A stretch of 64,000 nucleotides of DNA, taken from the NCBI RefSeq assembly GCF_900128895.1, contig NZ_FSQW01000001.1, forward strand, positions 1,674,001-1,738,000, in the 5' to 3' direction. The stretch is from Parasphingorhabdus marina DSM 22363 (GTDB lineage Bacteria; Pseudomonadota; Alphaproteobacteria; Sphingomonadales; Sphingomonadaceae). Positions 32,915 through 44,975 of this stretch are shown in pieces. The position numbers and the translations under genes were made by a program. Under the pieces are notes generated by a model. That model made no database searches. It had not been told where the DNA came from and was given only the letters and a program-made list of their open reading frames with translations. Numbering within the stretch: position 1 is the first letter of the stretch; each line of letters begins with the position of its first letter.

Positions 32915-32989
32915 ATGAAAACGCTTTTCAATATTGTGGCAGCCCTGAGCATGAGCAGCATTATGCTGATTTCAACCGTTCAGATCTGA
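32915..32989 (+). CDS. Possible 24-residue membrane peptide
   Basis: An ATG 6 nt after a strong AAGGAG site opens a 24-codon frame (MKTLFNIVAALSMSSIMLIS at the start) that ends at TGA 32987-32989. The peptide is a lysine followed by a hydrophobic helix, like a signal anchor or a small membrane protein. It is too short to judge by coding statistics. It may also be a truncated signal-peptide gene. Confidence 0.4.
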   Translation: MKTLFNIVAALSMSSIMLISTVQI

Positions 32990-33144
32990 CCTAAAAAGCA
33001 TTCGGTCCCGGCACAGGCATCCTCCTCCCAAAGCGGTGCCGGGATTGCACCGAAGGTCCGGTTCTTTCAATATCCCCTCCCTAAAATGAGAGACCGGACC
33101 AACGGTTGCCCACCACAAAACCCAAGAAAATTGATCAGTCCGCC

Positions 33145-33199
33145 TTTTCCACAAGGTGCGCAGGACTTTTCCACAAGTAAGTTGAAGTGCTGTGGATAA
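33145..33199. other. Cluster of three DnaA-box-like sequences
   Basis: TTTTCCACA occurs at 33145-33153 and 33167-33175 (22 bp apart, about two helical turns), and TGTGGATAA, the complement of the consensus box TTATCCACA, at 33191-33199. This could titrate DnaA or mark a DnaA-controlled promoter. Nothing else around it (no AT-rich unwinding region, no dnaA/hemE neighbours) supports an origin. Confidence 0.4.
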
Positions 33200-33239
33200 G
33201 ATGAGCATTTGCATTTGGCGCGACTCGCGATGGCGTGAC

Positions 33240-33644
33240 ACAAAGGTTTTGTCAGAAGGAAACGACACAAATTGGCGACCCGTCAGCAATGACCCGCCGA
33301 AGCGTGGAAAGACCGGAAGACAATCGAGACGAACAAATTGTTGTCCGCAAGGAAAATGAATTGATCTTTCGATTGATGGCCCGGGAGAAGTCGGGGAAGC
33401 GGAGGCGCAAGCCAAAGCGGAACAGATGGACCGGGGCGATCAGGTGACTGGACCAGTATCGGGTTTGAAACCGAAGGGCAGACGCGCAAGCGTCGGCGCG
33501 GAAAACCGAGAACCGCTAACGATACTGGCCCGGAAACCGGACGCCAGAAAGCGGAAGCTGAAATCGCGAGAGGACAGCATCCCGAACCAGGCGCAGTGGG
33601 AGCCGAAAGCCGGATTTGTCTGGTAATCGGCTCCCATTTTTTTT
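33240..33644 (+). ncRNA. Purine-rich possible RNA ending in a strong terminator
   Basis: The stretch has no convincing gene in any frame but ends in an excellent terminator: GGGAGCCGA (33598-33606) / TCGGCTCCC (33627-33635), then A and T8. Inside are GCAA-tetraloop hairpins (GGC-GCAA-GCC at 33404-33413, GACGC-GCAA-GCGTC at 33481-33494) and a 9-bp long-range pair CCAGTATCG / CGATACTGG enclosing the second one. Two overlapping reading frames of 70 and 66 codons exist and cannot be excluded. The 5' end is a guess. Confidence 0.35.
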
Positions 33645-33701
33645 GCGTGAAGCCTGCGCGCTCGACTTGCTCGATAAATTTTCGGGAAACAATGTGGTCG
33701 G

Positions 33702-33715
33702 GTGATCCTGATCAC
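33702..33715. promoter_or_regulatory. CRP/FNR-type palindrome 1
   Basis: GTGATCCTGATCAC is a perfect palindrome matching both the CRP core (GTGA-N6-TCAC) and the FNR core (TGAT-N4-ATCA). Its centre (33708.5) is 41.5 bp upstream of 33750, where the first stem of RNA candidate 1 begins, which is the class II activator distance. Confidence 0.6.
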
Positions 33716-33748
33716 AGCCCCGTTGCATCGGACATGCCAATAGAGTTT

Positions 33749-33908
33749 TGCGATGCTGCTAATATCGCAGCAAGTTGCGGGGGGCAGCAGCATCGCACCA
33801 TCCGGATCCGAGTTGTGTATCCCGGATGATCCCCTTCAAGGCCCATCGGGGCGGCACGCAGGCAAGCGACCCGACTGCGTACCGTTCCGGTGGGCTTTCC
33901 CCTTTTTC
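33749..33908 (+). ncRNA. Candidate small RNA 1 (GCGACCCG-loop family)
   Basis: Three consecutive stem-loops: TGCGATGCTGCT (33749-33760) / AGCAGCATCGCA (33786-33797), a perfect 12-bp stem; CATCCGG / CCGGATG just after it; and a long hairpin, GCCCATCGG (33841-33849) / CCGGTGGGC (33887-33895) with inner ACGCAG / CTGCGT. The 13-nt apical loop of the last one contains GCGACCCG (33866-33873). TTTCCCCTTTTT follows as a terminator tail. A -10-like TAGAGT (33741-33746) is weak. No reading frame looks coding. Ends are estimated. Confidence 0.6.
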
Positions 33909-34004
33909 CGATCATCCAAAGACCCTCTGTACGGCCAGAAAAAAGCTTTTCTTACAGGATTTTACACCGAAACCACGCTATTATGTAAACGCATGTAAAT
34001 AAGC

Positions 34005-34018
34005 GTGACCTTGATCAC
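34005..34018. promoter_or_regulatory. CRP/FNR-type palindrome 2
   Basis: GTGACCTTGATCAC differs from site 1 at two central positions and keeps GTGA-N6-TCAC. Its centre is 41.5 bp upstream of 34053; TATACA at 34040-34045 is in the right place for a -10 box. Confidence 0.6.
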
Positions 34019-34052
34019 ACTCTGTTCACTTTTTTCGGATATACATGGTTTA

Positions 34053-34130
34053 AGACATCGTAAGCATTAGCATACTTTGTCCTATCGTAATGAGGAGCCC
34101 GATGGTTAGCGACCCGCCCATCGGGCTTTT
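34053..34130 (+). ncRNA. Candidate small RNA 2 (GCGACCCG-loop family)
   Basis: A compact unit of about 78 nt. The predicted start is set by the -10 TATACA. The end is a clear intrinsic terminator: GCCCGATGG (34097-34105) / CCATCGGGC (34118-34126) and TTTT. The 12-nt loop contains GCGACCCG at 34109-34116. There is no open reading frame of note. This is the best-defined of the four candidates. Confidence 0.65.
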
Positions 34131-34178
34131 CTCGTTTTGAAGCTTCCGCAAATTTTTCTGCCGTTTTTTTTGATCAAG

Positions 34179-34192
34179 GTGATCTGCATCAC
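34179..34192. promoter_or_regulatory. CRP/FNR-type palindrome 3
   Basis: GTGATCTGCATCAC, with outer G/C pairs extending the symmetry to 16 bp (34178-34193), belongs to the same set as sites 1 and 2. A class II start would be at about 34227; the -10 there (TATCCG) is poor. Confidence 0.55.
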
Positions 34193-34226
34193 CCGGACGT
34201 CATGACGCCATTGCTATCCGAATGGT

Positions 34227-34345
34227 GCGGCGCCGATCCAGTGAATCGATTCACGAAAACCGGGTGGCACCGTCGTGTCGCTCCTCGCGATACGGTGAGG
34301 TCTGGCAGTATTTGCGACCCGGCTGTCAGACCTCACTCCCTTCTC
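34227..34345 (+). ncRNA. Candidate small RNA 3, or structured leader of the dipeptidase gene
   Basis: Structures in order: a 14-bp palindrome GTGAATCGATTCAC; a hairpin CACCGT / ACGGTG whose apex exposes TCCTC, a possible anti-Shine-Dalgarno loop; and a 14-bp stem GTGAGGTCTGGCAG (34295-34308) / CTGTCAGACCTCAC (34323-34336). The 14-nt loop of the last stem contains GCGACCCG (34314-34321). The downstream TCCCTTCTCTT is only a weak T-tract, and the dipeptidase ATG is 90 bp away, so read-through into that gene is possible. Confidence 0.55.
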
Positions 34346-34435
34346 TTCGACATCACACTCTGCCGCTGTTCGGGACTTGTGCCGGCCAGGCTCCCGTTCT
34401 AGCCTTGTGTCTTCGTGGTAGCAGGGGACAACCGC

Positions 34436-35743
34436 ATGAACAGCAACCGGTCGATGAAGCGCCGAACGGTGCGAACCTGTCTGCAGGTGGCTGCAATGGC
34501 CGGGTTTTTCTCCTGCTTCGCCGCACCAGCCCAGGCCACGGTAGCGCCGCCGGACGCCTCGACGCCTGTTTCAGACCGGGCGGATCAGATCCATCGGGAT
34601 GCCATTGTTATCGATGCCCATGCCGACATTGTTCTGCCGTCCACATCGTCCACCTATCTCGCGGCGGATGGCCTTTCAAAAGTCGATCCTGCGAAGCTGC
34701 GGGCCGGGCAGGTGGATGTGGTCGTCATGGCCGTTGCCGTGGGACCCGGGCCGAGGACGAGCGAAGGCGACGCGGTCGCCAAAGCTGAAGCCGAGGCGAA
34801 GTTGCAGGCGGTAACCCGGCTCGCTGAGGACGATCCGCTGATATCCATTGCCCGGACCCCTGCCGACATAACGGCGCTTGTAGAGGAGGCGCAGACGGCT
34901 TTGCTACTGGGCTTTCAGAATGCCAGAGCCCTGGGTGGCGACGTGGATGAGCTGGATCGCTTGCACGCGGCCGGTGTACGGGTTTTCGGTCTCAATCATC
35001 TCGGGCATAACGATTTTTCGGACAGTTCGCGTCCGGTCTTCAATGGCGAAACCGGGGAATATGAGGCTGACGAAGAGCATGGCGGCCTCTCCGTGCTGGG
35101 CCGCGCGGCGGTGCGCCGGATCAATCAGCTGGGCGGGATTGTTGACGTGTCCCAGATGTCAAAAAATGCGACCCTGCAGGCTGTTACGGTTTCGACCGCG
35201 CCTGTCATCGCGAGCCACAGTAATGTCCGGCAGCTGTCGAACGTCACCCGCAATCTTTCGGATGAAGAGATTGATGCCATCGGCGCGCAGGGTGGCGTCA
35301 TCCATATTGCGGCCTTCGGCGCCTATCTGGTCGACCTGTCGGACCCGGAACTGCTGGCGGCGATAGGCAAGGTTCGGGAACAGGCCGGACTTCCGGAAGC
35401 CTGGTCCTATCCCTACGAGCTTTATTGGGAAATCGATGATCCAGCCAGACGCCAGTCCTTCCTGAGGGCGATGCGGCAGGTGATCGGACCGGGATCCGTC
35501 GAACGCATGATTGATCATATCGACTATGTGGTCAAACGCATCGGCATTGACCATGTCGGGATCGGAACCGATTTCAATCATGGCGGCGGTGTTGCCGGTT
35601 TTACCGATGCCAGCGAAGCCGGGAATGTGACTCGGGCACTGCTGGAACGCGGCTATTCGGAGCAGGATATCGCGAAAATCTGGGGCGGGAATTTTCTGCG
35701 CGTGTTCGCCGATACTCAGCGCGCCGCAAATCCGGACCGTTGA
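34436..35743 (+). CDS. Membrane dipeptidase (peptidase family M19), exported
   Basis: ATG at 34436 follows AGGGGA by 8 bp; an in-frame GTG at 34415 is less likely. The 435-residue product has a signal peptide (ending near APAQA). It shows the renal dipeptidase pattern: zinc-binding VIDAHADI near residue 55, GFQNARAL and LGLNHLGHNDF, a distal ligand in VIASHSN and the C-terminal HVGIGTDFNHGGGV. It should hydrolyse dipeptides in the periplasm. A structured region with a CRP/FNR-type site precedes it. Confidence 0.93.
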   Translation: MNSNRSMKRRTVRTCLQVAAMAGFFSCFAAPAQATVAPPDASTPVSDRADQIHRDAIVIDAHADIVLPSTSSTYLAADGLSKVDPAKLRAGQVDVVVMAVAVGPGPRTSEGDAVAKAEAEAKLQAVTRLAEDDPLISIARTPADITALVEEAQTALLLGFQNARALGGDVDELDRLHAAGVRVFGLNHLGHNDFSDSSRPVFNGETGEYEADEEHGGLSVLGRAAVRRINQLGGIVDVSQMSKNATLQAVTVSTAPVIASHSNVRQLSNVTRNLSDEEIDAIGAQGGVIHIAAFGAYLVDLSDPELLAAIGKVREQAGLPEAWSYPYELYWEIDDPARRQSFLRAMRQVIGPGSVERMIDHIDYVVKRIGIDHVGIGTDFNHGGGVAGFTDASEAGNVTRALLERGYSEQDIAKIWGGNFLRVFADTQRAANPDR

Positions 35744-43547: not shown

Positions 43548-44975
43548 ATGGCAGGCGCAGTTGCACCGGGTGGCGAAGGATGGTCCTCGCGATGGGCCTT
43601 TATTCTGGCAGCGGTGGGCGCGGCCGTGGGACTGGGCAATATCTGGCGCTTTCCCACGCTTGCCGGCGAAAATGGTGGCGGCGCCTTCGTCCTCGTCTAT
43701 TTTGGCTGCGTGGTATTGATCGGCTTGCCAATGGTCCTGTCAGAAGTCCTGATCGGACGGCACGGGCGCAGTGATGCCTATCACAGCGTGATCAAGGTAG
43801 CGGAGGATTCCGGTGTCAGCCGCAAATGGGGCCTGTTTGGCGGTTTTGGCATTTTGGGGGCCGGGGCGATCCTGACCTTTTACAGTGTCGTCGCCGGCTG
43901 GGTCCTCTATTATGTTGGTGTGATGGGCGCGGATTTTCTCGGCGCGCTCTTTTCCGGCAATCCCATGGCGGGGGCGCTGGCCGCGGAATCGCCAGAGACC
44001 ATTCCCACCAGGATGACCGATCTGTTTGCCAATAACTGGCTGCTGCTGAGCATGCACGTCCTGTTCATGGGCGTCACCATCTGGATCGTCGCGCGCGGCG
44101 TGACCGACGGCATAGAAAAAGCCGCCACGATATTGATGCCCGCCTTTTTTGTGCTGCTGGTGATGATCACCATCTACGGGGCGTTTACCGGGGAATTCGC
44201 CAGGGCGCTGGCATTCCTCTTTACCCCGGACTTTTCCAAATTGTCGCCCTCGGTGATCAACGAGGCGCTCGGACAGGCGCTGTTTTCGATGAGCGTCGCT
44301 TCGGCTGCGCTGATTACCTATGGCGGCTATGTCGCGAAGGAGACGAAGCTGGCGCCGACCGCCGTGATGATCGGTCTGACCGACACCGGGGTGGCGATAC
44401 TTGCCGGTCTGATGATTTTTCCGATCGTCTTTGCGGTCGGACTGGATGCGGCCGCCGGACCGACGCTGGTATTTCAATCACTGCCCATCGCCTTTCACAC
44501 CATGCCGGCCGGATCGCTGGTCGGGCTTCTCTTCTTCGTGCTCATCTTCTTTGCCGCTCTGACCAGTTCGATATCGCTGCTGGAAGCCGTCACGGCCTGG
44601 GCGAAGGAGAAAACTGGCTGGAGCCGTCCCAAATCGGCGTGGATTGCCGGCGGCGTGATCTTTCTTGTCGGAGTCGCCTGTGCGCTCTCACTGAACATCT
44701 GGTCTGATGTCCGGCTGTTGCCGTTCTGGCCGCTGTTTGCCGAGGCCAATATTTTCGACACGATTGATGGTCTGGTCGGCAAGGTGCTGCTGCCGCTGAC
44801 GGCCCTGCTGACATCGATATTTATCGGCTGGAAAGCGGACAGGAAGCTGGTCGAGGCGGAAACCGGACTGTCGGGCGGAATGCTCGGCATATATCGTTTC
44901 CTGATCGGCTGGGTGGCACCAATAGCGGTCTTCCTGATCCTGCTCTTTGGCCTGTTCCCGCAGCTTTTGGGATAA
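43548..44975 (+). CDS. Sodium-dependent transporter, SNF (NSS) family
   Basis: ATG at 43548, after TGAGGGAG, gives a 475-residue protein with about 12 membrane helices. The family start WSSRWAFILAAVGAAVGLGNIWRFP and the unwound helix 1 GNIWRFP are clear, as in LeuT-type neurotransmitter:sodium symporters, which import amino acids or related solutes with Na+. Helix 6 and helix 8 regions (FFSMSVASAALITYGGY-like, LFFVLIFFAALTSSISLLE) are present. The substrate is not predictable. Confidence 0.92.
   Translation: MAGAVAPGGEGWSSRWAFILAAVGAAVGLGNIWRFPTLAGENGGGAFVLVYFGCVVLIGLPMVLSEVLIGRHGRSDAYHSVIKVAEDSGVSRKWGLFGGFGILGAGAILTFYSVVAGWVLYYVGVMGADFLGALFSGNPMAGALAAESPETIPTRMTDLFANNWLLLSMHVLFMGVTIWIVARGVTDGIEKAATILMPAFFVLLVMITIYGAFTGEFARALAFLFTPDFSKLSPSVINEALGQALFSMSVASAALITYGGYVAKETKLAPTAVMIGLTDTGVAILAGLMIFPIVFAVGLDAAAGPTLVFQSLPIAFHTMPAGSLVGLLFFVLIFFAALTSSISLLEAVTAWAKEKTGWSRPKSAWIAGGVIFLVGVACALSLNIWSDVRLLPFWPLFAEANIFDTIDGLVGKVLLPLTALLTSIFIGWKADRKLVEAETGLSGGMLGIYRFLIGWVAPIAVFLILLFGLFPQLLG

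Follow-up and report, generated by a model that had tools for sequence, protein, structure and literature searches.

Three short tandem units in the genome of Parasphingorhabdus marina DSM 22363 are probably siblings in a new, locus-bound family of small RNAs whose members would each be transcribed from a class II-type promoter of their own and activated by a CRP-type regulator. Working from the sequence, we give this interpretation a probability of roughly three in four. As comparison of the sequences supports, each unit comprises a palindrome centered 41.5 bp upstream of the predicted start, a 5' hairpin (weak in B-type units), a middle part, and, at the 3' end, a covarying hairpin whose loop shows the invariant 7-mer GCGACCC. 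To our knowledge, few small RNAs have been described in sphingomonads, and this family offers a likely regulator, predicted transcription starts, and a single invariant loop.

All three units lie on the forward strand of the window, by which we mean the whole 64,000-nucleotide stretch of DNA that was analyzed. Upstream of unit 1 is a CRP-type palindrome at 33702 to 33715 (center, 33708.5). The unit itself, of A type, is predicted to span 33750 to 33905, with a predicted start and an approximate 3' end. Its first element is the stem GCGATGCTGC, and its 5' hairpin can be aligned with those of 12 relatives; the terminal hairpin (33838 to 33898) carries GCGACCCG in its loop at 33866 to 33873. Unit 2, of B type, is predicted at 34053 to 34137, downstream of a palindrome at 34005 to 34018 (center, 34011.5) and a −10-like TATACA at 34040 to 34045, and its terminal hairpin (34096 to 34127) has GCGACCCG at 34109 to 34116. 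For unit 3, the palindrome is at 34179 to 34192 (center, 34185.5), the predicted RNA at 34227 to 34343, and the terminal hairpin at 34295 to 34336 with GCGACCCG at 34314 to 34321; its start resembles that of the C type in relatives (GCGGC...). The initial annotation had placed the palindromes at 33702, 34005, and 34179 and the 8-mer at 33866, 34109, and 34314. All six positions are exact, and all three 8-mer copies fall within apical loops of strong hairpins. Its description of these hairpins as terminators fares unevenly: a fair T-run follows in unit 2 and a later one in unit 1, while that of unit 3 is poor, as are those of A-type units in general. A simple scan for terminators missed all three units; its loop limit of 8 excludes these hairpins. 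A simple sigma-70 promoter scan of 33150 to 34450 found no promoter.

The clustering of GCGACCCG is well beyond chance. The 8-mer has 230 copies in the 3.55-Mb genome, or about one per 31 kb per strand, so that the frequency of one per 65 kb assumed earlier was too low; the expected number on one strand of 456 bp is 0.015, and the probability of three or more is still only about 5e-7. The three units also fold more stably than shuffled sequences (200 shuffles each), with z-scores of −4.3, −5.0, and −5.3 for units 1, 2, and 3 and with 0, 1, and 0 shuffles, respectively, folding as well. In the window as a whole, the 8-mer occurs 10 times. One copy, at 33275, was considered as the mark of a fourth unit and rejected: it sits inside an adjoining conserved RNA-like element, and none of the 15 aligned relatives has it there, which places it outside the pattern.

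The locus is a feature of the genus. A DNA search of 60 genomes returned the window itself and three other members of the genus, with the alignment confined to the 5' hairpin of unit 1; each of these three relatives carries, at its locus, a tandem pair of units that share this loop. The initial annotation had suggested a covariance-model search as a check, and a model of the 3' hairpin built from nine sequences matched all 32 genomes of the genus at E ≤ 1. Reading of the DNA confirmed the hairpin family at the same locus in 29 of the 32 (L005 to L033). The three genomes lacking a confirmed locus are 80% (G002), 67% (G004), and 82% (G008) complete, and the G002 match, when fetched (L034), was an ordinary hairpin. 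In the window's own genome, the model had three matches, all at this locus.

Alignment of the 44 terminal hairpins from the 29 genomes supports a conserved RNA structure. All 44 share the 7-mer GCGACCC without a change; part of this invariance comes from the search itself, because the covariance model rewards that loop. Across this alignment, which was fitted to the covariance model, the 11-pair stem is 97.4% paired, and 8 of its 11 pairs show two-sided changes. None of 500 shuffled alignments reached any of five measures of this support, and when the pairing partners were slid by 1 to 3 columns, only 16 to 52% of the stem was paired. Frequent G-U pairs in the stem fit an RNA of this strand. 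In 39 of the 44 units, the predicted unpaired value of the loop exceeds 0.6; for units 1, 2, and 3 it is 0.97, 0.47, and 0.93. The 5' halves, by comparison, fall into three kinds, A, B, and C. Two-sided changes occur in six pairs of the A units (n = 13; four within the 5' hairpin), in an alignment in which the window's unit 1 is misaligned in its 3' part; in five pairs of the B units (n = 13; one within the weak 5' stem); and in four pairs of the C units (n = 11; one within the 5' stem). These differing 5' modules might confer copy-specific stability or extra partners.

The palindrome and its spacing are conserved along with the hairpin. A strict GTGA-N6-TCAC stands upstream of the loop in 37 of the 44 units, including all three in the window, against a chance expectation, based on the window's own count, of about 0.017 per unit. 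Of the seven units without it, five are the second units of L009, L010, L013, L024, and L029; the other two are in L023, where a contig end truncates one of them. The spacing of 41.5 bp had been claimed for unit 2 alone. If +1 is predicted as the palindrome center plus 41.5, units 1 and 3 fit as well, with predicted starts (33750 and 34227) that fall on the opening base of a 5' stem. Among the non-B units folded, which left out the first unit of L023 because of too little sequence, the first paired base fell at the predicted +1 (28 units) or +2 (1 unit) in 29 of 29; past the first bases, a few units, L009 among them, fold differently. A class II geometry, with the center at −41.5, would follow from these predicted starts. 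Among the 37 palindrome-bearing units, there is a T at −12 in 26 and an A at −11 in 31. Altogether the 29 loci hold 40 strict palindromes, and GCGACCC lies downstream of 38 of them. The other two are extra palindromes in L028 and L031, each followed, where the start is expected, by a 5' hairpin and also by a C-run, with no GCGACCC hairpin; these could be units in decay or a loopless variant. The window contains one more strict palindrome, its fourth, GTGATGCCTATCAC at 43771 to 43784, within a reading frame that we take to be transporter-like.

The search was also extended beyond these 32 genomes. Six of 296 genomes sampled from the order matched at E ≤ 1e-4 under stricter filters: the window's own genome, another of the genus, and four others, of which two lacked GCGACCC and two, of genus g31, had a GCGACCC hairpin. 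At the g31 loci (L035 and L037), a GCTAGCGACCCAGC hairpin lies shortly 3' of the isocitrate lyase gene (identified by HMM for L035), and no palindrome was found within either locus; the hairpin may be due to chance, or it may mark a 3'UTR RNA that shares the loop. From 38 other genera of the family, one genome apiece was scanned, with weak covariance matches only. Among 19 such loci (L041 to L059), 16 of the stretches lack GCGACC and were rejected, most of them as ordinary hairpins, and those of L055 and L059 are too short to be read. L057, from another genus (G332), has GCGACCCG between short complementary arms, with an E value of 0.007 and no T-run. When the loop pattern was sought in further contigs, a palindrome lay upstream of it in at least 6 loci among the 120 matches listed: L162, from Sphingorhabdus sp. 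109, a named record that has the locus, and L110, L111, L134, L154, and L155, from uncultured Sphingomonadaceae. Most of the remaining matches among those listed we attribute to chance in GC-rich genomes.

If the units are small RNAs, their exposed loop would be the active motif. Its most likely partner would be GGGUCGC in the leaders of mRNAs, close to the ribosome-binding site, where pairing would lower translation; this pairing step, taken by itself, we regard as an evenly balanced possibility. A search for GGGTCGC placed before AGGA-ATG in 10 genomes gave 79 matches, compared with 101 for a reversed control seed before the same SD-ATG, and thus no overall enrichment. Reversing the whole pattern gave 17 matches, which makes a poor control because it breaks the SD-ATG. 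The reversed 7-mer is probably commoner than the seed; the reversed 8-mer has 438 copies in the genome versus 230 for GCGACCCG. Control matches recur too, one of them in 5 of the 10 genomes by matched string. The initial annotation had viewed the common loop as the seed of a small-RNA family under Crp/Fnr-type control and had named complementarity in mRNA leaders as a check. The structured family and control from within the Crp/Fnr superfamily are well supported by comparison; the loop may act as a seed, for which these counts show no enrichment.

Individual leaders recur among the seed matches. The most recurrent string, GGGTCGCTTG..., is in the leader of mutL in 9 of the 10 genomes, the exception being the window's own; the MutL protein was read in seven loci and HMM-tested in one. 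This leader is conserved over about 40 nucleotides, longer than the seed. The mutL leaders of L180, L182, L185, L197, L198, L199, and L206 contain GGGTCGCTTG and a second TCGCTTGG, and the frame divergent from the mutL leader is presumably MreB-like. Leaders of GMC oxidoreductase, RodZ-like, and acetylornithine transaminase genes recur in three to four mostly close genomes. The window's own genome has eight seed matches, one of which is the back strand of unit 2; another lies just before nuoF (L184) and is found in G003 as well. Taken together, these matches lend the pairing idea weak support.

Alternatively, the loop of these same CRP-type-activated RNAs could be a protein-binding site, with the tandem copies titrating or guiding an RNA-binding protein as CsrB or RsmY does through a different motif. 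A loop conserved beyond its stem, its tandem repetition, and the lack of seed enrichment are what such a function would lead one to expect. However, single-unit genomes are common among the relatives (e.g., L007, L014, and L022), which is few copies for a sponge, and we know of no candidate protein. CsrB/RsmY-type sponges carry repeated GGA loops, and the loop shared here is GCGACCC. We consider protein binding unlikely. Whatever its partner, a motif that is confined to the loop of the 3' hairpin and better conserved than the stem offers a clear setting in which to ask how such loops choose partners.

The most likely regulator of the units, judged from sequence, is a CRP-like protein encoded on the minus strand at G000:C1:695212-695895. 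The palindrome pattern GTGAYNNNNRTCAC has 13 copies genome-wide, compared with 3 for the reversed pattern; these 13 strict palindromes comprise the 3 described here, 1 before the CRP-like gene, 8 inside open frames, and 1 between frames. The copy before the CRP-like gene is 47 to 68 bp upstream, depending on the gene start. Orthologues were found in 31 of 32 genomes of the genus, and 26 of 30 loci have a strict palindrome before the gene; in L263 the palindrome has one base changed, and L257, L266, and L269 are without it. The protein combines a cyclic-nucleotide domain with the helix SREHINR, which all 28 orthologues that were read share. The closest relatives with a solved structure are Crp/Fnr-type regulators, which we take to be mycobacterial CRP. 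We call it CRP-type, and not CRP proper, because it scores 68.1 bits against an NCBIfam CRP cutoff of 266. The protein would read a signal, perhaps a cyclic nucleotide, and the siblings would then be made together; the genome contains a class III cyclase gene.

It is improbable, in our assessment, that the same RNAs answer instead to another Crp/Fnr protein (FNR-like L217 or FixK-like L218 or L212), with oxygen or another cue as the signal. Palindromes recognized by members of the Crp/Fnr superfamily are similar, and the genome does encode several such proteins, among them the FNR-like one, with an ETVSR helix. FNR-type sites, however, read TTGAT-N4-ATCAA, whereas all three sites here read GTGA...TCAC, and the palindrome before the SREHINR-type gene (26 of 30 loci) favors the SREHINR protein. 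FNR or FixK control, with which the initial annotation had drawn a comparison, is less likely, given the GTGA half-site and the fact that the FNR-like ETVSR protein is the product of a different gene. Poor T-runs in some units and the empty promoter scan might suggest that the units yield no RNA of their own and are elements at the DNA level or ordinary hairpins that follow a regulator site, but the invariant loop, the G-U-rich covariation, the fixed promoter geometry, and the agreement of start with stem across 29 genomes make this very improbable.

Should the CRP-type protein have few other sites, its output may run largely via small RNAs, which would be unusual for a protein of this type. 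A more ambitious extension is a genus-wide regulon in which it controls chiefly its own gene and the RNA cluster, much of its output passes through the invariant 7-nt loop in each sibling's 3' hairpin, and the loop acts on mutL- or nuoF-type leaders, tying genome maintenance or respiration to nutritional state; we regard this as distinctly unlikely.

The family appears to be distinct from those already described. Rfam scans, which had been put forward as a check, matched no family to the window units, and in the loci of seven relatives, the only match was an unrelated terC in L035. Among the literature matches listed, no such small-RNA family was named. In enterobacteria, the small RNAs Spot 42, CyaR, and FnrS are controlled by CRP or FNR. 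The units resemble them in their predicted control by a Crp/Fnr-superfamily protein but differ in having tandem copies, sites of their own, and a common loop, and Rfam scans gave no sequence relation. In design, the units come closest to alpha-r14/NfeR1 of Sinorhizobium meliloti (Rfam ar14, RF02344), in which an identical unpaired hairpin motif is kept while the stems diverge, and the anti-Shine-Dalgarno sequence CCUCCUCCC occurs three times in one RNA (PMC10746234). Here, the motif is GCGACCC, present once per unit, and each unit has its own regulator site. Membership in alpha-r14 was rejected, as the loops do not hold CCUCCUCCC and motif, layout, and sequence all differ; the only ar14 match near the units, at 33001 to 33086, scored 15.5 bits, where the gathering score is 58.8.

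The alphaproteobacterial siblings alpha-r8/SuhB/SisA-D are tied to carbon state, and SuhB has a role in carbon catabolite repression of a sphingomonad (PMC12559287, PMC6563040). The four Sis copies are scattered, with unrelated promoters, and the active stretch is single-stranded UUUCCUCCCU (PMC12559287), whereas in our units the motif is in a terminal loop. No alpha-r8/SuhB match was found by Rfam in the window region or in the loci of seven relatives, and we rejected membership; some A-type units do have a short TCCTC stretch. The CcsR1-4 (cuckoo) RNAs of Rhodobacter are likewise tandem homologous small RNAs of an alphaproteobacterium, but they are processed from a single transcript, shared with a DUF1127 gene, under an RpoH-type promoter (PMC10253847). 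Each unit here has its own palindrome. NmsRA and NmsRB of Neisseria, two tandem siblings acting on metabolism, differ in their link to the stringent response, bacterial class, and anti-SD stretches (PMC5362039).

The surroundings of the units are conserved as well. In eight of eight 10-kb loci, a DUF4197-like ORF (identified by Pfam in the window and by a similar start in relatives) and a purine-rich noncoding element lie upstream of the units. Further neighbors, where the stretch reaches, are presumably an SDR enzyme and an acyl-CoA dehydrogenase, and the next gene downstream in the window encodes a peptidase M19. The purine-rich element (33220 to 33645, forward strand) ends in a hairpin and T-run (GGCTCCCATTTTTTTT). 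It is probably a noncoding RNA of about 400 nucleotides, since 80 of 94 indels among 16 aligned sequences are not multiples of 3 and there are stops in all frames. It had no Rfam match, and its DNA matched in 2 of 149 genomes of the family, both of this genus. Just 5' of the element, at 33145 to 33199, stand three DnaA-box-like motifs (TTTTCCACAA twice and TGTGGATAA) that are conserved in the 16-sequence alignment; we rejected their reading as an origin, there being no clear skew switch in the window. A 24-codon frame (32915 to 32989, forward strand) precedes the purine-rich element, and the DNA around it aligns in several relatives.
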